A DNA stretch of 7,995 bases from Paludibacteraceae bacterium. GTDB taxonomy: Bacteria > Bacteroidota > Bacteroidia > Bacteroidales > Paludibacteraceae. Under the pieces are notes generated by a model, which saw only the letters and a program-made list of their open reading frames with translations, was not told the DNA's origin and made no database searches. The translations under genes were made by a program, and so were the position numbers. The stretch lies in the NCBI GenBank assembly GCA_017542915.1, contig JAFXWI010000033.1:1-7995 (forward strand). The letters run 5' to 3'. Every line of letters starts with the position of its first letter. The stretch's first letter is position 1. Positions 1,424 to 7,995 of the stretch are shown here, piece by piece.

Positions 1424-2314
1424 CTATACCAGCGTCTTCACCAACTGCTCTGTGTCTCCAGGGAGGAGGTCGATGGGGGCGAGTTCGATCATGGTCTTGG
1501 CACCGAACTGACCACGGGCTTTCATGCGCATGGCGGCACGGGCACAGGAGACCATCACTTGACCGGTGAGGGCAGGATTATTGATTGCCATATTGAACTC
1601 AAAACGCTGATTATGAGTCTCTCCCGACACACCGGAACGAACGAGGTTCACTCCGTGCGCTACGTTATTGAGGGCATCGACCGACTCCACGGCAATGACG
1701 TGGGTCTCGTCGTGTGCGAAATAATCATCGGCAAGGATAGCTGCTTCAACGGTCTTGAAATCGGCTCCTTCTTCGAGCTCGATATAGACCATACGGCGAT
1801 GGATGCCTGTTCCCAAGGGAATGGTCATGGAGAGGGCGTTCTTGACGCCTTTGATAGCCTTGGCTGCGACGGTGTGCCCCATGGAACGACCGGGACCGAA
1901 ATTGGTGTAGGTGATACCTTTGGGAGCCAGTGCCATAAGCAGCGCACGGATCATCGAGTCCGAGCCCGGATCCCAGCCTGCGGAGATGACCGAGACGCAC
2001 TTATTAGCCTGACAAACAGCGTCTAAGGAACTGCGTAAGTTCCAGATCTGACCGTGGATATCGAAGCTATCGACAGTACAGATACCGCGTGCTGCGAGGA
2101 TAGTGGCGAACTTCTGCACTTCACGCGTCGGCGTTGCGACGAGCACTACGTCTACAGGACGTTCGTCATTTGAGATTTGAGATTTGACATTTGAGATTTT
2201 GTCCAAACAATCATTGTGGTGAAAAATACCTGCCAACTCCATATCCGGAGCGGCGTTAATGGCTTCTTCGGCGGCACGGCCTATATTGCCGTAACCGAGG
2301 ATCGCTACTTTCAT
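1424..2314 (-). CDS. ddh: meso-Diaminopimelate D-dehydrogenase
   Basis: This 296-residue enzyme of usual length belongs to the NADP-dependent family that reductively aminates tetrahydrodipicolinate to meso-2,6-diaminopimelate in one step, feeding lysine and peptidoglycan synthesis in the cytoplasm. The Rossmann nucleotide-binding loop GYGNIG is at 7-12. Family signatures DSFD (82-85), SAGWDPGSDS (111-120) and NFGPGRSMGHT (138-148) follow, with substrate-domain sequence to the C-terminus (FEFNMAINNPALTG, 238-251). It is the last gene of the operon, 34 nt behind glmS, and is followed by a strong terminator. Residues 39-49 (KISNVKSQISN) are encoded by an array of 7-bp repeats of the kind found between genes nearby. 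They fall in a variable surface segment before VDVVLVATP, so the enzyme should remain active. The identity is secure by motif. The repeat origin of this segment is seen in the DNA. Confidence 0.93.
   Translation of the reverse strand: MKVAILGYGNIGRAAEEAINAAPDMELAGIFHHNDCLDKISNVKSQISNDERPVDVVLVATPTREVQKFATILAARGICTVDSFDIHGQIWNLRSSLDAVCQANKCVSVISAGWDPGSDSMIRALLMALAPKGITYTNFGPGRSMGHTVAAKAIKGVKNALSMTIPLGTGIHRRMVYIELEEGADFKTVEAAILADDYFAHDETHVIAVESVDALNNVAHGVNLVRSGVSGETHNQRFEFNMAINNPALTGQVMVSCARAAMRMKARGQFGAKTMIELAPIDLLPGDTEQLVKTLV
2168..2201. repeat. 7-bp tandem array inside ddh
   Basis: Four units on the plus strand (ATTTGAG, ATTTGAG, ATTTGAC, ATTTGAG) are followed by a partial ATTTTG. The same unit occurs between the four-helix-bundle gene and glmS (4366-4400) and, inverted, before that gene (4762-4789). 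Here it is translated as Ddh residues 39-49 without breaking the frame. Confidence 0.85.
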
Positions 2315-2317
2315 AGA

Positions 2318-2350
2318 ATTAAAAATTAAAAATTACGAATTAAAAATTTT
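2318..2350. repeat. 7-bp tandem array in the glmS-ddh gap
   Basis: The gap holds ATTAAAA, ATTAAAA, ATTACGA and ATTAAAA, then ATTTT. It thus consists almost wholly of 7-bp units, as do the other gaps of this operon, though the unit differs (ATTAAAA rather than ATTTGAR). It overlaps the leader of ddh, where no Shine-Dalgarno site is present. Confidence 0.7.
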
Positions 2351-4340
2351 ACTCCACCGTAACCGATTTGGCGAGGTTGCGGGGCTGATCGACGTCGTAG
2401 CCTTTGACGACGGCGATGTGGTAGGCAAGGAGTTGGAGAGGGATGACGGTCAGAAGGGGCGTGAGGCACTCTTCGGTCTCCGGCACTTCGATGACGTAGT
2501 CCGCGATCTTGGAGACGAGTTCGTCGCCTTCGGTCACCACGGCTATCACCCTACCCTTGCGGGCTTTGATCTCTTGGATATTCGATACCACTTTCTCGTA
2601 GGTGCCGCAACGGGGCGCTACGACCACCACCGGCATCTCCTGCGAGATAAGGGCTATCGGTCCGTGCTTCATCTCCGCAGCAGGATACCCTTCGGCATGG
2701 ATGTACGAGATCTCTTTGAGTTTGAGAGCACCCTCCATAGCGACCGGATAGTTATATCCACGACCGAGATAGATGAAGTTCTGGGCATAGGTAAAAGTCT
2801 TCGCGAAATCCGCAATGCGTTTGTTCTGACCGAGCACGCGTTCGATCTTATCGGGGATCTGACCCAATTCACGCACGATTCGGACGAACTGGTCGTTGGT
2901 TAATGGGTTAGTGGGTGAGGGGGTTAGTGGGTTAGTGGTAGCACTCATCCTCTCATCCTCTAATCCTCTCATCCTCTCATCCTCTAATCCTCTCATCCCT
3001 TTCTCTTTGCCAATACAGAGCGCAAGCATGGTGAGAGCAACCACTTGTGCGGTGAAGGCCTTGGTGGAAGCGACGCCTATCTCGGGTCCCACATGCGTAT
3101 AACAGCCGCTGTCCGACACACGCGGGATAGAAGCGCCGACGACGTTACAGATAGAGAAGATAAACGCGCCTTTGGACTTGGCCAATTGGATAGCTGCAAG
3201 GGTGTCGGCTGTCTCACCGGACTGCGAGATAGCGATGACCACATCGTCTTTGTTGATGACCGGCTTGCGGTAACGGAACTCGGAGGAGTACTCCACTTCG
3301 ACAGGTATCTGCGCGAACTCCTCGATGGCGTACATAGCGATGAGTCCGGCGTGCCACGAGGTGCCGCAAGCGGTGATGATGATTCGTTTGGCATTGAGGA
3401 ACCGCTCTTTATTGTCAATGAATCCCGAGAGGGCGATGTTGTCCTGCCTAACGTTGACACGTCCTCGCATGGAGTCGGTCAGCGTACGGGGCTGCTCGAA
3501 GATCTCCTTGAGCATGAAATGCGGATAACCGCCTTTCTCCAACTGACTGAGTGAGAGTTCGAGACGCTTGATCTCCGGGGTCTTGGCAACGTTATTGATG
3601 GTGGTGATCGTTAAAGGGTTAGTGGGTGAGGGGGTTAGTGGGTTAGTGGTAGCTCTCATCCTCTCATCCTCTAATCCACTCATCCTTACACACACCACCT
3701 CTTCGTCCTCTATATAAATCACCTTATCCGTATATTCGACGATGGGCGTAGCGTCGGAAGCCAAGAAATACTCCTCTTCGCCGATGCCGACGACGAGCGG
3801 TGAACCCTTGCGGGCTGCAATCAGCGTGTCCGGATGATCTTTGTCCAGCACCGCAATCGCGTAGGCACCGATGACCTGCTGGAGAGCTAACTGCACAGCT
3901 GTCTTGAGATCGACATGGCGGTTCACCTGCGTATATTCGATGAGCTGCACCAACACCTCGGTGTCCGTTTCGGACTTGAAGGTGTAACCTTGCTCCATGA
4001 GTCCGGCTTTGAGGACCGCGTAGTTCTCAATGATGCCGTTATGGATGATCGCGAGGCGTTCGGACTCCGAGTAATGAGGATGCGCATTGACCGTATTAGG
4101 CTCGCCGTGGGTTGCCCAACGCGTATGCGCGATACCTATTGTACCATTGGTATCCTTGTCCGCGCAGAAGGCTTCGAGTTCTGCCACTTTGCCTTTCGCT
4201 TTATAGACGTTCAGTTGTCCTGCCTCGTTGATGAGTGCCACACCGGCACTGTCGTAGCCGCGGTACTCCAGACGATGCAAACCTTTTATCAAAATCGGGT
4301 ACGCCTTGCGTTTACCGATGTAACCTACTATGCCACACAT
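2349..4340 (-). CDS. glmS: Glutamine--fructose-6-phosphate aminotransferase (isomerizing), with two repeat-encoded inserts
   Basis: GlmS makes glucosamine-6-phosphate from fructose-6-phosphate and glutamine, the first step to UDP-GlcNAc for peptidoglycan and lipid A. After Met removal Cys2 is the glutaminase nucleophile (MCGIVGYIG). HTRWATHG (72-79), the oxyanion NG (101-102) and SETDTEV (123-129) complete the N-terminal amidotransferase domain. The first SIS domain has CGTSWHAG (325-332), SQSGETADT (372-380) and EIGVASTKAFT (420-430). The second holds KEISYIHAEGYPAAEMKHGP (542-561), and the conserved tail is DQPRNLAKSVTVE. The protein has 663 residues against about 610 in the family. The excess lies in two inserts, roughly 221-247 and 449-481, each carrying GLEDERM and ATTNPLTPSPTNPLT. 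The first is at the domain linker, the second between the SIS domains where other GlmS proteins have a short helix-linker. All catalytic motifs are intact, so activity is expected. No glmS ribozyme fits in the 62-nt leader. Confidence 0.95.
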   Translation of the reverse strand: MCGIVGYIGKRKAYPILIKGLHRLEYRGYDSAGVALINEAGQLNVYKAKGKVAELEAFCADKDTNGTIGIAHTRWATHGEPNTVNAHPHYSESERLAIIHNGIIENYAVLKAGLMEQGYTFKSETDTEVLVQLIEYTQVNRHVDLKTAVQLALQQVIGAYAIAVLDKDHPDTLIAARKGSPLVVGIGEEEYFLASDATPIVEYTDKVIYIEDEEVVCVRMSGLEDERMRATTNPLTPSPTNPLTITTINNVAKTPEIKRLELSLSQLEKGGYPHFMLKEIFEQPRTLTDSMRGRVNVRQDNIALSGFIDNKERFLNAKRIIITACGTSWHAGLIAMYAIEEFAQIPVEVEYSSEFRYRKPVINKDDVVIAISQSGETADTLAAIQLAKSKGAFIFSICNVVGASIPRVSDSGCYTHVGPEIGVASTKAFTAQVVALTMLALCIGKEKGMRGLEDERMRGLEDERMSATTNPLTPSPTNPLTNDQFVRIVRELGQIPDKIERVLGQNKRIADFAKTFTYAQNFIYLGRGYNYPVAMEGALKLKEISYIHAEGYPAAEMKHGPIALISQEMPVVVVAPRCGTYEKVVSNIQEIKARKGRVIAVVTEGDELVSKIADYVIEVPETEECLTPLLTVIPLQLLAYHIAVVKGYDVDQPRNLAKSVTVE
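2898..2998. repeat. Composite 8-bp array, copy A, inside glmS
   Basis: A run of GGGTTAGT-type units (GGGTTAGT, GGGTGAGG, GGGTTAGT, GGGTTAGT) is followed by GGTAGCA and then seven CTCATCCT-type units (CTCATCCT or CTAATCCT). The two halves are partly complementary, since GGGTTAG can pair with CTAATCC using one G-U, so the array can fold back. It encodes GlmS residues 449-481 in frame. Positions 2905-2975 repeat at 3616-3686 with two mismatches. Confidence 0.9.
3616..3686. repeat. Composite 8-bp array, copy B, inside glmS
   Basis: This is a second copy of the array at 2905-2975, 71 bp with differences only at 3654 and 3678. It has fewer CTCATCCT-type units than copy A. The offset is 711 bp, exactly 237 codons, so both copies are read in the same frame and give nearly the same peptide. 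This copy encodes residues around 219-242, after the glutaminase domain. Confidence 0.9.
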
Positions 4341-4343
4341 GAG

Positions 4344-4365
4344 ATAAAATTTATTTAAATTTTAT
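4344..4365. repeat. AT-only inverted repeat just before the glmS start
   Basis: ATAAAATTT and AAATTTTAT form perfect 9-bp arms around ATTT. The right arm abuts the 7-bp array that starts at 4366, and the left arm ends three bases before the glmS start codon. As RNA it would be a weak hairpin covering the ribosome-loading region. It may also be a trace of an insertion boundary. Confidence 0.5.
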
Positions 4366-4404
4366 ATTTGAAATTTGAAATTTGAGATTTGAGATTTGAA
4401 ATTT
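4366..4404. repeat. 7-bp tandem array, downstream flank of the four-helix-bundle gene
   Basis: Five plus-strand units (ATTTGAA, ATTTGAA, ATTTGAG, ATTTGAG, ATTTGAA) are followed by ATTT. The array begins right at the stop codon of the four-helix-bundle gene (4405-4403). It is the inverted counterpart of 4762-4789, matching at six of every seven positions. Confidence 0.85.
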
Positions 4405-4756
4405 ATTTCTCGTTTTTGATAGTTTTTACACTCGCAGCGATTATTTTGTAAATTTCCCTTACTTCTAAAACTAATTCGTCATACTTTTCTTTAGAAATAA
4501 GCTCTGCTCCATATAACACACGTAACCAATATATTGTCTCATTGGCCTCTTTGAGAGAGATTCCTAACTTATGAACAAAATCAGCACGACTTTCCCCGTC
4601 ACAAGCCTCGCTATAATTAGCTCCTATACTCGTACCACTTCGTTGAATTTGTTCGGCTATATTATATTCATGCTGAGTTTCCCGCAGATACTTACGTAAT
4701 TTCGTAATTTTAACTGCATACTCTACGCATTTTGTTAATAACTCTTCTTTTGTCAT
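4403..4756 (-). CDS. Four-helix-bundle protein of the 23S rRNA intervening-sequence family
   Basis: This 117-residue, wholly helical, charged protein has no signal peptide. It matches the small family named for ORFs in 23S rRNA intervening sequences, with which the diversity-generating retroelement protein Avd shares its fold. The signature QIQRSGTSIGANYSEA is at 36-51, followed by the second conserved stretch KLGISLKEANETIYWL (63-78), and the length is usual. Family members form oligomeric bundles with basic surfaces, and their cellular role is not settled. The gene lies between glnN and glmS, 43 and 62 nt away, and is much more AT-rich than both, with 7-bp arrays on either side. No reverse transcriptase, variable repeat or rRNA sequence is present, so it is not acting as Avd in this window. 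The family call is secure. The function is unknown, and it has no evident metabolic link to the operon. Confidence 0.85.
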   Translation of the reverse strand: MTKEELLTKCVEYAVKITKLRKYLRETQHEYNIAEQIQRSGTSIGANYSEACDGESRADFVHKLGISLKEANETIYWLRVLYGAELISKEKYDELVLEVREIYKIIAASVKTIKNEK

Positions 4757-4761
4757 AAAAT

Positions 4762-4789
4762 ATCAAATATCAAATGTCAAATGTCAAAT
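4762..4789. repeat. 7-bp tandem array, upstream flank of the four-helix-bundle gene
   Basis: Four plus-strand units (ATCAAAT, ATCAAAT, GTCAAAT, GTCAAAT) end exactly where the inverted repeat of the glnN end begins. The array is the reverse complement of the type at 4366-4400, and it supplies the leader of the four-helix-bundle gene. Confidence 0.85.
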
Positions 4790-4821
4790 AGAATTGCTGT
4801 TAGTGAATAAACAGCAATTCT
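4790..4821 (-). other. Perfect 12-bp inverted repeat across the glnN stop codon
   Basis: On the minus strand AGAATTGCTGTT pairs perfectly with AACAGCAATTCT around the 8-nt loop TATTCACT. The stop codon TAA (4802-4800) lies partly in the loop and partly in the arm, so the last codons of glnN form one side. No T run follows, which speaks against a standard terminator. It may limit readthrough, protect the 3' end of the glnN message, or mark the junction where the neighbouring cassette entered. Confidence 0.7.
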
Positions 4822-6989
4822 CTGTATTTTGGGAGTGTCCAGAGTTCGTCATCGACGATGAGTTCGAGGGCGTCAGCGTGATCGCGGATCTGCGCCATAA
4901 GCGGCAGGACGGTGTCGTGATAAGCGATCGCTTTGGAACGCTCGTCGGGCTGACGGTTCGCTTTATGACGCGCCTCGGTCATGCGCTCTACGCCTTCGAG
5001 AATAGCACCGGAGTGCTCCTCTATCTGCTTGATGATACTATAGTCCATGGCGTTGAGGGATGCCGTCTCGTCGGCGGAGAAGACTTGTTTCACCGCCAGT
5101 ACGTTCTGCAGCAGCATCGTCTGGTAGCGTTTGGCGGCAGGTAGCACATGGTTGACCACGAGGTCGCCCATCACACGGCTCTCGATCTGCAGTTTCTTGA
5201 CGTAGGTCTCCCATTTGACCTCACTACGGCTATGGAGTTCTGCCTCATTGAGCACGCCGGTCTTCTCGAACATACGGATGCTCTCCGGTGCTAAGTAACG
5301 GTCAATGACCACCGGCACACTCGTCTCGCAGTCCAGACCGCGTTTGGCAGCTTCGGTCTTCCACTGTTCACTATAGCCGTTACCGTCAAAACGGATCGCC
5401 TTGCAGGCAACGATATATTTCTTGATAACATCAAACAAGACGCGCTCTTTGGGTTCGCCTTTCTCGATGCGCTGATCGACCTCGTCCTTAAAGAGCATCA
5501 GCTGCTCCGCTACGGCGGCATTGAGGGCTAACATAGCGGCTCCGCAGTTAGCAGACGAACCCACAGCGCGGAACTCAAAACGGTTTCCGGTGAAGGCGAA
5601 AGGCGAAGTACGGTTGCGGTCGGTGTTGTCCAAGAGGATCTCCGGGATATTCGCCACACCGAGCTTCATCTCTTTCTTGGCATTGATGATGATCGCCTCT
5701 TCGGCAGTAGCGGACTCCAATTTATTGAGAACCTCGCTGATCTGTTTGCCGAGGAAGACGGAGATGATGGCAGGAGGCGCTTCGTTGGCTCCCAGACGGT
5801 GCTCGTTCGTAGCGCTCACGATAGACGCTTTGAGCAAGCCGTTATGACGATGCACCGCCATGAGCACGTTCACAAGGAAAGTGATGAACTGCAGGTTCTG
5901 GTAGGGGTTCTTACCCGGCGCCAAGAGGTTCACACCCGTGTTGGTCTGCATCGACCAGTTGCAGTGCTTACCGCTACCGTTGACCCCTGCATAGGGTTTC
6001 TCATGCAGCAGCACGCGGAAATGATGTTTCTCCGCCACACGCTCCATGATGCTCATTACGAGCAGGTTATGATCGTTTGCCAAGTTCACGTCCTCGAAGA
6101 TAGGTGCCATCTCGAACTGGTTAGGTGCTACTTCGTTATGCCTTGTACGGACAGGGATACCTGCCTTGAGGGCTTCGTACTCCAGATCGCGCATGAACGC
6201 CAACACACGTGCAGGAATAGCTCCGAAATAATGATCCTCCAACTGCTGGCTCTTGGCACTGTTGTGTCCCATGAGCGTACGACCGGTGAGCATCAGATCC
6301 GGACGGGCGTTATAGAGCGCTTCGTCCACCAAGAAATACTCCTGCTCCCACCCTAAGTTCGCGTGTACGTGTTTGACTTGTTTATCAAAGTACGCGCACA
6401 CCTCACGCGCGGCATGACAGAGCGCTGCCGTAGAGCGGATGAGCGGAGTCTTGTAATCGAGCGCTTCGCCCGTATAAGCCACAAACACCGTCGGGATACA
6501 GAGTGTGTCACCGATGAGGAAGACCGGAGACGAAGGATCCCACGTTGAGTAACCACGTGCCTCGAAGGTGTTACGTATACCACCGCTCGGGAACGAGGAA
6601 GCATCCGGCTCCTGTTGATAGAGACTGTCCCCGCTGAACTCCTCGATGAGCACGCCGTTCTTATCCAAAGTAAAGAACGCGTCATGCTTCTCTGCCGTGC
6701 CGCCCGTCAGAGGCTGAAACCAGTGCGTGAAATGCGTAGCACCGTGCTCTATCGCCCATTTACGGATACCGATAGCCACTACGTTCGCTATGTCGCGATG
6801 AATAGTACGACCGTTATCGACATCATCGAACAACTGATCCAATACCTCCTGCGCGATATATTCCTTCATTTTCTCGCGCGTGAACACATCGGTTGCGAAA
6901 TAATCCTTCACTTTGCCTTCGGGCACTGCCAAATCCACTGATTTATGCAAAAAAGCAGATTTCAACGCTTCAAAACGAATATTACCCAT
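4800..6989 (-). CDS. glnN: Glutamine synthetase type III
   Basis: This enzyme makes glutamine from glutamate, ammonia and ATP. Its 729 residues are the size of Bacteroides-type GSIII and far longer than GSI (about 470). Motifs in order are: THWFQPLTGGTAEKHDAF (88-105, type III signature), GWEQEYF (213-219, metal-binding glutamates), RHNEVAPNQFEMAP (284-297), NGSGKHCNWS (337-346, with the catalytic-site histidine) and NEHRLGANEAPPAIIS (395-410). RTSPFAFTGNRFEFRAVGSS follows further on. The protein ends in helical, type-specific sequence. GSIII forms large dodecamers in the cytoplasm and is not expected to carry the GSI adenylylation control. The start at 6989 lies 47 nt inside the predicted transcript and gives the expected N-terminus. 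It heads the operon and supplies glutamine to the GlmS encoded downstream. A perfect inverted repeat spans its stop codon. I see no frameshift or missing motif. Confidence 0.95.
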   Translation of the reverse strand: MGNIRFEALKSAFLHKSVDLAVPEGKVKDYFATDVFTREKMKEYIAQEVLDQLFDDVDNGRTIHRDIANVVAIGIRKWAIEHGATHFTHWFQPLTGGTAEKHDAFFTLDKNGVLIEEFSGDSLYQQEPDASSFPSGGIRNTFEARGYSTWDPSSPVFLIGDTLCIPTVFVAYTGEALDYKTPLIRSTAALCHAAREVCAYFDKQVKHVHANLGWEQEYFLVDEALYNARPDLMLTGRTLMGHNSAKSQQLEDHYFGAIPARVLAFMRDLEYEALKAGIPVRTRHNEVAPNQFEMAPIFEDVNLANDHNLLVMSIMERVAEKHHFRVLLHEKPYAGVNGSGKHCNWSMQTNTGVNLLAPGKNPYQNLQFITFLVNVLMAVHRHNGLLKASIVSATNEHRLGANEAPPAIISVFLGKQISEVLNKLESATAEEAIIINAKKEMKLGVANIPEILLDNTDRNRTSPFAFTGNRFEFRAVGSSANCGAAMLALNAAVAEQLMLFKDEVDQRIEKGEPKERVLFDVIKKYIVACKAIRFDGNGYSEQWKTEAAKRGLDCETSVPVVIDRYLAPESIRMFEKTGVLNEAELHSRSEVKWETYVKKLQIESRVMGDLVVNHVLPAAKRYQTMLLQNVLAVKQVFSADETASLNAMDYSIIKQIEEHSGAILEGVERMTEARHKANRQPDERSKAIAYHDTVLPLMAQIRDHADALELIVDDELWTLPKYRELLFIH

Positions 6990-7207: not shown

Positions 7208-7236
7208 CGCGCTTTTTGTGAAAACTAGTTTACTGG

Positions 7237-7281
7237 AGCATCTATAGCAACTAGAGCAACTAGTCCATCTAGAGCAACTAG
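7237..7281 (+). repeat. 9-bp tandem array in the nqrA leader
   Basis: Five contiguous units read AGCATCTAT, AGCAACTAG, AGCAACTAG, TCCATCTAG and AGCAACTAG. They lie in the untranslated leader of nqrA, about 25 nt past the predicted transcript start. CTAG steps, which are usually rare in bacterial genomes, recur at each unit end. The role is unknown. Confidence 0.8.
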
Positions 7282-7318
7282 AAATCAAACAAAATCAATA
7301 ATAATTAATTAACATTTT

Positions 7319-7995
7319 ATGCAAACGATCAAACTGAAAAAAGGTCTGGACATTCCTTTTGAAGGAACTGCGGCAGAGACGCTGGGTAGCGTTCGTCGGC
7401 CGGAGGTCTTTCATATCGTGCCCGACCAGTTCGCCGGCATCACTCCCAAACTGGATGTCAAGGTCGGCGACCGTGTGAAGGCGGGTAGCCCGCTCTTCCA
7501 CGACAAAGCGTTTGAGAGCTTGTTCTTTACCTCGCCTGTCTCGGGTGAAGTCAAAGAGATCGTGCGCGGTGAGCGACGTAAGATCATGTCCATCGACATC
7601 CTTGCGGACAGCGTCATCGAGTATGAGCATTTTGACACCGCAGGCGATGTGAAAGAGCTGCTGCTGAAAAGCGGCCTCTGGGCATTGATGAAGCAGCGTC
7701 CGTACGACTGCATCGCTCTGCCGAACAAGACTCCTCGTGCTATTTTTATTTCGAGTTTTGACAGTGCGCCTTGTGCTCCGAACTACGAGTGGGTGCTCAA
7801 GGGTCAGTTGCCTACCTTACAGGCGGCTGTCTCCGCGCTGGGCAAGATCGCGCCGGTATTCATCGGCATCAAGGGTGGCGCTAAAGCTACTGAGTTCCGC
7901 GAGTTGAAGGACTGCACCCTCTATGAGGTCTATGGTCCCCACCCTGCCGGAAACGTAGGCGTACAGCTCAACAACCTCGCGCCGCTGGCTAAGGG
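7319..7995 (+). CDS. nqrA: Na+-translocating NADH:quinone reductase subunit A, N-terminal part (cut by the right edge)
   Basis: NqrA is the cytoplasmic-side, quinone-interacting subunit of the six-subunit Na+-NQR, which oxidises NADH, reduces quinone and pumps sodium across the inner membrane. The 225 complete codons seen start with MQTIKLKKGLDIPFEG, the family opening. Next come FHIVPDQFAGITPKLDVKVG, a lipoyl/biotinyl-like hairpin segment (VGDRVKAGSPLFHDKAFESL, then FTSPVSGEVKEIVRGERRK), SGLWALMKQRPYD and GPHPAGNVG (206-214). No signal peptide or membrane span is present, as expected for NqrA. The ATG at 7319-7321 matches the family N-terminus, and no Shine-Dalgarno site precedes it. In other Bacteroidetes nqrA leads an nqrABCDEF operon, and the remaining genes probably follow beyond the edge. 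The gene is divergent from glnN and shares promoter architecture with it. Confidence 0.93.
   Translation, partial: MQTIKLKKGLDIPFEGTAAETLGSVRRPEVFHIVPDQFAGITPKLDVKVGDRVKAGSPLFHDKAFESLFFTSPVSGEVKEIVRGERRKIMSIDILADSVIEYEHFDTAGDVKELLLKSGLWALMKQRPYDCIALPNKTPRAIFISSFDSAPCAPNYEWVLKGQLPTLQAAVSALGKIAPVFIGIKGGAKATEFRELKDCTLYEVYGPHPAGNVGVQLNNLAPLAK

Follow-up and report, generated by a model that had tools for sequence, protein, structure and literature searches.

One probable copy of a widespread selfish S23 cassette between glnN and glmS in a Paludibacteraceae genome

The segment 4362–4793 of the window (the whole stretch of 7,995 nucleotides from a gut bacterium of the Paludibacteraceae that was analysed) is probably one copy of a widespread class of selfish cassettes of about 430 bp, in which a gene for an S23 protein sits between matched inverted arrays of 7–8-bp units and which is probably a relative of the S23-coding intervening sequences (IVS) of 23S rRNA. 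The same anatomy recurs in several phyla, the window's S23 gene is absent from the site in relatives, and arms and gene are associated with each other at unrelated loci; these comparisons suggest movement or copying of the cassette at the level of DNA. The original cassette idea is supported and is far more general than the window. In this reading, two unexplained things, the S23 family and the seven-base repeats found in bacterial genomes, are tied to each other.

Anatomy of the window cassette

The genes on the minus strand of the window run in the order glnN, S23, glmS and ddh (Table 1). The S23 protein matches PF05635 (E 1.1e-24, score 87.1 against a curated cut-off of 33.8) and TIGR02436 (E 1.3e-29, score 102.6 against a curated cut-off of 24), is related to PDB 2rld (E 2.1e-27), and belongs to a family that the NCBI model names only “four helix bundle protein”. 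The two arms form an inverted repeat of 36 nt that is 86% complementary, with its halves 360 nt apart and S23 as the only gene between them; TRF assigns periods of 7 and 14 bp to the left array and of 7 bp to the right one. In the sense direction of S23, ATTTGAC or ATTTGAT units make up the upstream arm, and ATTTGAA or ATTTGAG units in reverse complement make up the downstream arm. An S23-family gene between inverted 7-bp arrays in an operon, here glnN–glmS–ddh, was the core of the original prediction and is confirmed. Two further claims of that prediction are borne out: the gap between glnN and glmS measures 459 nt, of which 35 nt are left when 4366–4789 is removed, and the S23 gene is clearly more AT-rich than its neighbours, with a GC content of 34.7% in the gene and 32.1% in the block versus 53.6% in glnN, 54.0% in glmS and 53.6% in ddh.

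Table 1. Features of the window discussed in the text (TRF, tandem-repeat call)
Feature	Positions	Strand	Remarks
S23 / four-helix-bundle gene, 117 aa	4403..4756	−	PF05635, TIGR02436; GC 34.7%
Upstream (U) arm, array of ATTTGAY units directly 5′ of the S23 start codon	4758..4793	−	TRF array 4758–4790; inverted repeat
Downstream (D) arm, inverted array of TTTCAAAT/CTCAAAT units, after the S23 stop codon and before glmS begins	4362..4397	−	TRF whole array 4352–4404; inverted repeat
glnN, glutamine synthetase type III, neighbour upstream of S23	4800..6989	−	
glmS, neighbour downstream of S23, with two in-frame inserts	2349..4340	−	
ddh, next gene after glmS	1424..2314	−	
Perfect 12-bp hairpin spanning the stop codon of glnN, immediately ahead of the U arm	4790..4821	−	halves 4790–4801/4810–4821
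In-frame glmS insert, inverted 8-bp arrays back to back, no gene between	3616..3686	−	TRF; arrays 3616–3649/3653–3686
Second in-frame glmS insert, same make	2898..2998	−	TRF; arrays 2898–2938/2944–2998
Single 7-bp array in the glmS–ddh gap; same site as the S23 cassette of relative L030	2317..2348	−	TRF
Single ATTTGAG array within the ddh frame, in frame and translated	2168..2199	−	TRF

The block as originally drawn ended at 4821 and takes in, as a second feature, the hairpin over the glnN stop codon. In relative L026, the last 30 letters of glnN are identical to those of the window and the post-stop half of the hairpin is absent, so the inverted copy in the window is probably recent. Perfect hairpins of at least 9 bp that span the upstream gene's stop codon were seen at 5 of 77 S23 sites versus 1 of 361 control gaps (p 8e-4); with the limit set at 8 bp the counts are 6 of 77 versus 9 of 361 (p 0.03), and at 10 bp they are 3 versus 0 (p 0.005). 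The ends of the cassette are blurred by the arrays, and the inverted copy of the glnN end is the only end duplication seen. As a guess, this copy could have arisen incidentally from fold-back synthesis when the cassette inserted.

A phage origin of the window cassette was rejected for lack of a DNA match between positions 4340–5000 and phage records, and a defence function for S23 was rejected with 0 of 23 S23 proteins matching a PADLOC model. Elsewhere in the window, a 9-bp array of the ACTAGAGCA type at 7232–7282 lies directly before an ORF that starts at 7319.

Inverted arms at S23 genes of several phyla

For each gene, a bracket score was obtained by aligning locally (+1/−1/−2) the flank that precedes the start codon with the reverse-complemented flank that follows the stop codon, with 16 as the threshold. 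The flanks taken were 110 nt in the clade sample, 130 nt in the phylum sample and 150 nt in the plasmid and viral samples, and this difference in length makes controls comparable only within each sample.

The clade sample rests on a PF05635 search of the genomes behind 26 of the 80 glnN loci described below, 23 of which have matches over the cut-off (90 in all). The resulting set of 90 distinct S23 genes includes the window and holds matches over the cut-off only, thus leaving out L104, whose match is under it, as well as L154, an S23 gene with an internal stop. Inverted arms flank 50 of the 90 genes (or 49 of 89 if the window is set aside, every one of the 23 genomes contributing at least one), and the threshold is reached by 3 of 380 ORFs in the glnN loci and by 6 of 126 neighbours of S23 genes. 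When arms were paired across different loci, 19 of 540 combinations reached 16, so that arms match their own partner and not those of other loci; the repeat word varies from cassette to cassette, and both arms of one cassette match. The remaining 40 of the 90 genes fall under the inverted-arm threshold, and arms in the same direction score at least 16 at 15 of the 90, exceeding the inverted score at 11 of these.

The pattern recurs beyond the clade. The 61 genomes of the phylum sample, 44 of which have PF05635 matches over the cut-off (up to 16 per genome), gave 29 new loci, one of which was dropped for flanks that were too short; inverted arms were found at 16 of the remaining 28 S23 genes versus 4 of 37 neighbour controls. 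Among plasmids, 14 of 27 records with an S23 match were fetched and the S23 gene was found by profile in 13 (in L249, which stands outside the 13, it was not), comprising ten from Cyanobacteriota and one each from Spirochaetota, Chloroflexota and Bacteroidota. Twelve of the 13 have inverted arms versus 2 of 31 control ORFs, with a perfect 36-bp arm pair on a plasmid of Nostoc sp. C052, and the direct score lies above the inverted one in four of the 13. On viral contigs (44 loci), inverted arms flank 29 of 40 distinct S23 genes versus 9 of 92 other ORFs; the 40 include near-copies, and clustering at 90% protein identity gives 25 of 35. The original proposal that homologues be checked for flanking arrays is thereby answered in its favour, with rates well above the controls in all four samples.

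Two contigs were read through (328 and 400 kb without N). Of their non-S23 ORFs, 8 of 679 reach 16, none with a clear array pair by eye, and their six S23 ORFs score 19, 15, 14, 9, 15 and 20, so that two pass. A strict seeded search of the same contigs, which recovered only one of the six S23 genes, returned 12 pairs with a loop of at least 60, two of which are the arrays at that gene.

The subfamily closest to the window (18 loci, S23 identity 59–76%, partly the same genes as the 90 of the clade) has 5 loci over the threshold and 13 under it; by eye, most of the latter carry an array on at least one side and have short downstream arms, some of which run into the coding sequence of the next gene. 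When S23 proteins were clustered at 60% identity, the threshold was passed by one or more members in 17 of 19 clusters and by a majority in 13, and the bracket is thus not confined to one lineage. The GC content of S23 lies below that of its neighbours in 89 of 89 cases.

Individual loci vary in setting and make. S23 lies antisense between cas2 and cas1 in L243 and L245, both on cyanobacterial plasmids. It lies between DUF1156 and Swt1-HEPN genes in L244 from a cyanobacterium and in L246 from a chloroflexote, a shared setting that points to a site or cassette common to two phyla. The downstream arms of L365, L368 and L370 extend into the following gene and seem to code for the N-terminal residues of its product, as with MTNNKSQIKK. 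In some arms, including those of L088, L084 and L106, the heptamers are interspersed with short GC-rich words (such as gaccgcttcgct), and the matched arms of L088 extend over about 110 nt.

Empty and filled gaps in relatives

The relatives compared at the site are the best 80 of 278 related loci by GlnN (81–94% identical), for the most part titled as Bacteroidales or Paludibacteraceae MAGs and mostly ruminant-derived; the 80 loci do not stand for 80 genomes, and two isolates occur twice. As the original prediction anticipated of relatives, a tblastn search with the window S23, which misses distant S23 proteins, found it in 0 of the 80 loci. The glnN–glmS gap could be read in 64 of them, the other 16 having no glmS start within the stretch examined. 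In 16 of the 64 it measures 1–216 nt and is too short for an S23 gene, and in the other 48 the two genes are 1.2–5.4 kb apart with other sequence between them. Arrays built on other words make up several of the short gaps, for instance the 33-nt gap of TTATCAA units in L026.

A comparable picture emerges at the next gap of the operon, between glmS and ddh, which holds an S23 cassette in 1 of the 31 loci read (L030, 470 nt), one whose S23 gene the tblastn search had passed over. In the other 30, the window included, this gap is 1–312 nt long and no S23 gene was seen in it, and several have a single array. Two neighbouring gaps are thus empty in some species and filled in others.

Arms follow the S23 protein at unrelated loci

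Arm similarity was compared for pairs of S23 genes without similarity in their flanking DNA or proteins, that is, at unrelated loci. With rising S23 identity, the fraction of pairs that have similar arms in the same orientation to the gene was 0.08, 0.17, 0.19, 0.41, 0.48 and 0.81, in bins of 1256 (below 40% identity), 500, 234, 102, 63 and 21 (at least 80%) pairs, which share genes and are not independent. Similar arms in the opposite orientation also become more frequent (0.04, 0.06, 0.03, 0.14, 0.21 and 0.24 in the same bins), and the same rising trend was seen in a count with a weaker test of locus identity. Between unrelated loci, arms thus become more alike as S23 identity increases, which suggests that they travel jointly with the gene; the repeat co-varies with the S23 family in the manner of REP and RAYT, with the reservation that the pairs are not independent. 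This supports the original suggestion that such genes spread as repeat-bounded units, movement being what the likeness of arms at unrelated loci would reflect.

DNA or RNA as the level of arm matching

It had been predicted that the transcript can form a long stem with the gene in its loop. Such a fold is possible: in the predicted structure of the window transcript the arms are closed and the gene lies in the loop (MFE −91.8, z −2.23), with 3 of 100 shuffled sequences doing as well. If this stem were what is kept, the arms would be retained for pairing in mRNA, and RNase III or S23 itself would cut the S23 message out of the operon transcript in the way of an rRNA IVS. Consistent with such an RNA-processing module, RNase III excises the IVS of Coxiella (as described in the parts of PMC4990558 drawn on here), and S23 is co-directional with both neighbours at 69 of 88 loci, compared with 331 of 680 genes (about 49%). 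Against it, some S23 genes are antisense to both neighbours, including those between cas2 and cas1. The mismatches between arms also weigh against it: selection on the sense RNA should favour G.U, and 79 paired arms have 121 G.U versus 119 A.C mismatches (p 0.95), without a sign of such selection. We therefore regard the RNA stem as a possible fold and not as the selected feature, for which the counts give no support, and the RNA-processing module as an unlikely explanation of the arms. The equality of G.U and A.C favours a constraint that would act on the arms at the level of DNA.

Single arrays and gene-less pairs

A DNA-level constraint is also what one would expect if S23 played no part in it. 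Recombination, inversion or hairpin-templated repair could preserve the likeness of inverted arrays that lie close together; S23 would then serve the host in some unconnected role and owe its movement to ordinary recombination between arrays. The equal mismatch counts fit this homogenisation, and so does the abundance of single arrays, 32 and 24 strong 7-bp ones on the two contigs, which do not resemble the S23 arms of their own genome. After merging (40 and 33 arrays), an inverted partner lies within 60 nt for one array on each contig, and 63 of 73 are single. Single arrays score 17.4 against the S23 arms of their own genome versus 16.4 (sd 2.2) against foreign arms on one contig, and 12.3 versus 13.6 (sd 1.1) on the other. 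Being no closer to their own S23 arms than to foreign ones, they argue against dispersal of single arrays in trans, and the idea that a genome's own S23 disperses them is not supported.

Whether array density depends on S23 receives opposite answers, the phylum sample speaking for it and the clade test against it. In the phylum sample, in which kinship was not controlled, genomes that have no S23 match (15 of 16 readable) held 0 7-bp arrays in 284 kb, and 20 genomes with at least five matches held 17 in 388 kb, all in six of them. In the clade, array density does not follow the number of S23 genes (Spearman 0.18, p 0.37, 26 loci). One clade member without an S23 match (G018, loci L292–L298) has 21 arrays in 140 kb, or 15 per 100 kb, which again fits homogenisation; its assembly may be incomplete, or alternatively it may have lost S23. 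Another genome without a match (G025) has one array.

Two observations nevertheless stand against homogenisation without S23. First, the inverted bracket is nearly confined to S23, as seen in the other ORFs of the two contigs. Second, the arms keep their polarity relative to the gene and follow the S23 family, G exceeding C in the upstream arm at 62 of 79 loci and falling short of it at 13. We thus consider this explanation improbable. That heptamer arrays are ordinary operon spacers of the clade, with S23 between two of them by chance, is hardly credible even with a 7-bp-lag array in 44 of 365 intergenic gaps of relatives and with several empty glnN–glmS and glmS–ddh gaps made of such arrays, since it predicts equal bracket rates at other genes and unrelated arm sequences, neither of which holds, since the bracket recurs in other phyla, and since the control ORFs of the clade and of the two contigs reject it. 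The same 44 gaps, versus 0 after simple base shuffling, indicate that the arrays themselves are not due to chance and that single arrays are common in the clade too.

Gene-less inverted pairs also occur within the window. GlmS has 663 residues there versus 614–635 in the full-length relatives read, and both of its inserts lie at variable spots and consist of 8-bp units of a GGATGAG type that are followed almost at once by units of a CTAACCC type. By eye, the S23 cassette in the glmS–ddh gap of L030 has the same two kinds of arm (its downstream arm overlapping the 3′ end of its S23 frame), and the inserts thus look like a cassette without S23. The spot at 2898–2998 is variable in length in many relatives as well.

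A possible mechanism and its implications

In the selfish-cassette reading that we favour, the element would work like an S23-coding IVS of 23S rRNA that lives instead between the genes of protein-coding operons. The S23 protein, whose one recognised domain is S23, would bind the array or its hairpin, and may guide host enzymes to copy or join the cassette. Considering how often S23 shares the direction of both neighbours, it would be read from the transcript of the host operon. Loss of a cassette could leave behind single arrays in gaps and array hairpins that lack S23, as perhaps in glmS. Counting against the cassette reading are the many S23 genes under the threshold, the direct arms at some S23 genes, the array density of the clade without a link to S23, and the single arrays that fit their own genome's S23 arms no better than foreign ones.

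A much broader proposal, which we put forward as a tentative and at present rather doubtful one, is that S23 cassettes are a new and very common class of selfish DNA whose only protein would be a non-catalytic, repeat-binding four-helix bundle, and that they write and carry their cognate heptamer arrays, with the 23S rRNA IVS, the cyanobacterial and Xanthomonas heptamers, and TAACTGA as their products or relics. Should S23 prove to be the gene of a repeat-bounded element, this large and unexplained family would gain a biological setting and, in its own array, a candidate ligand; rRNA intervening sequences would gain a candidate source and the 7-bp repeats of bacteria a candidate maker.

Comparison with known systems

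Unlike an insertion sequence or a MITE, the window cassette has no transposase gene between its arms. Diversity-generating retroelements encode Avd (model NF033474), which we take to be of the same four-helix fold family as S23. The window S23 protein has no match to this model, and a reverse transcriptase was not found among the six window proteins scanned, both unlike such a retroelement; the protein of L081 matches the Avd model weakly and far under its cut-off (E 1.8e-6, 28 of 80 bits). RAYT genes are closer in layout: a RAYT is a small gene flanked by inverted copies of its cognate REP, with gene-less inverted pairs (REPIN) elsewhere. S23 is likewise a small gene between inverted copies of a cognate repeat, with gene-less inverted pairs elsewhere. 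RAYT belongs, however, to the catalytic HUH transposases, and the REPs are palindromic, whereas no HUH transposase domain was found in S23 and its array is a tandem heptamer.

Cyanobacteria have heptamer repeats known as STRR. These, TAACTGA and the GGGAATC arrays of Xanthomonas resemble the S23 arms in having 7-bp units and in being largely intergenic. According to the sections of PMC4679880 used here, TAACTGA heptamers of one Beggiatoaceae genome lie mostly close before start codons, occur also in Cyanobacteria and in five Bacteroidetes, Paludibacter among them, and may involve a repeat-binding protein as the mobile part of the system. The corresponding sections of PMC4692102 count 70 and 75 inverted pairs of GGGAATC arrays in two Xanthomonas genomes. 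Unlike the S23 cassettes, the heptamers in these sections of both papers come with no mention of S23 or of a gene inside inverted arrays. A link of solitary S23 genes to inverted heptamer arrays was not found in the open-access texts, titles and abstract openings covered, and an earlier description is possible.

The nearest counterpart is the S23-coding IVS of 23S rRNA. As the parts of PMC4990558 consulted describe it, the Coxiella IVS is a 428-nt element in the 23S rRNA that is closed by a 28-bp terminal stem and encodes S23, the ORF being preceded by heptameric repeats whose number varies between strains; S23-coding IVSs of Leptospira and others are cited there too. Unlike these, the window cassette sits between glnN and glmS and not in a 23S rRNA gene, and S23 cassettes at large occupy gaps of protein-coding operons, each with a different word. 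Like them, it is an AT-rich element of about 430 nt with an S23 ORF inside terminal inverted repeats, and its arms are able, in the predicted fold, to form a stem around that ORF.
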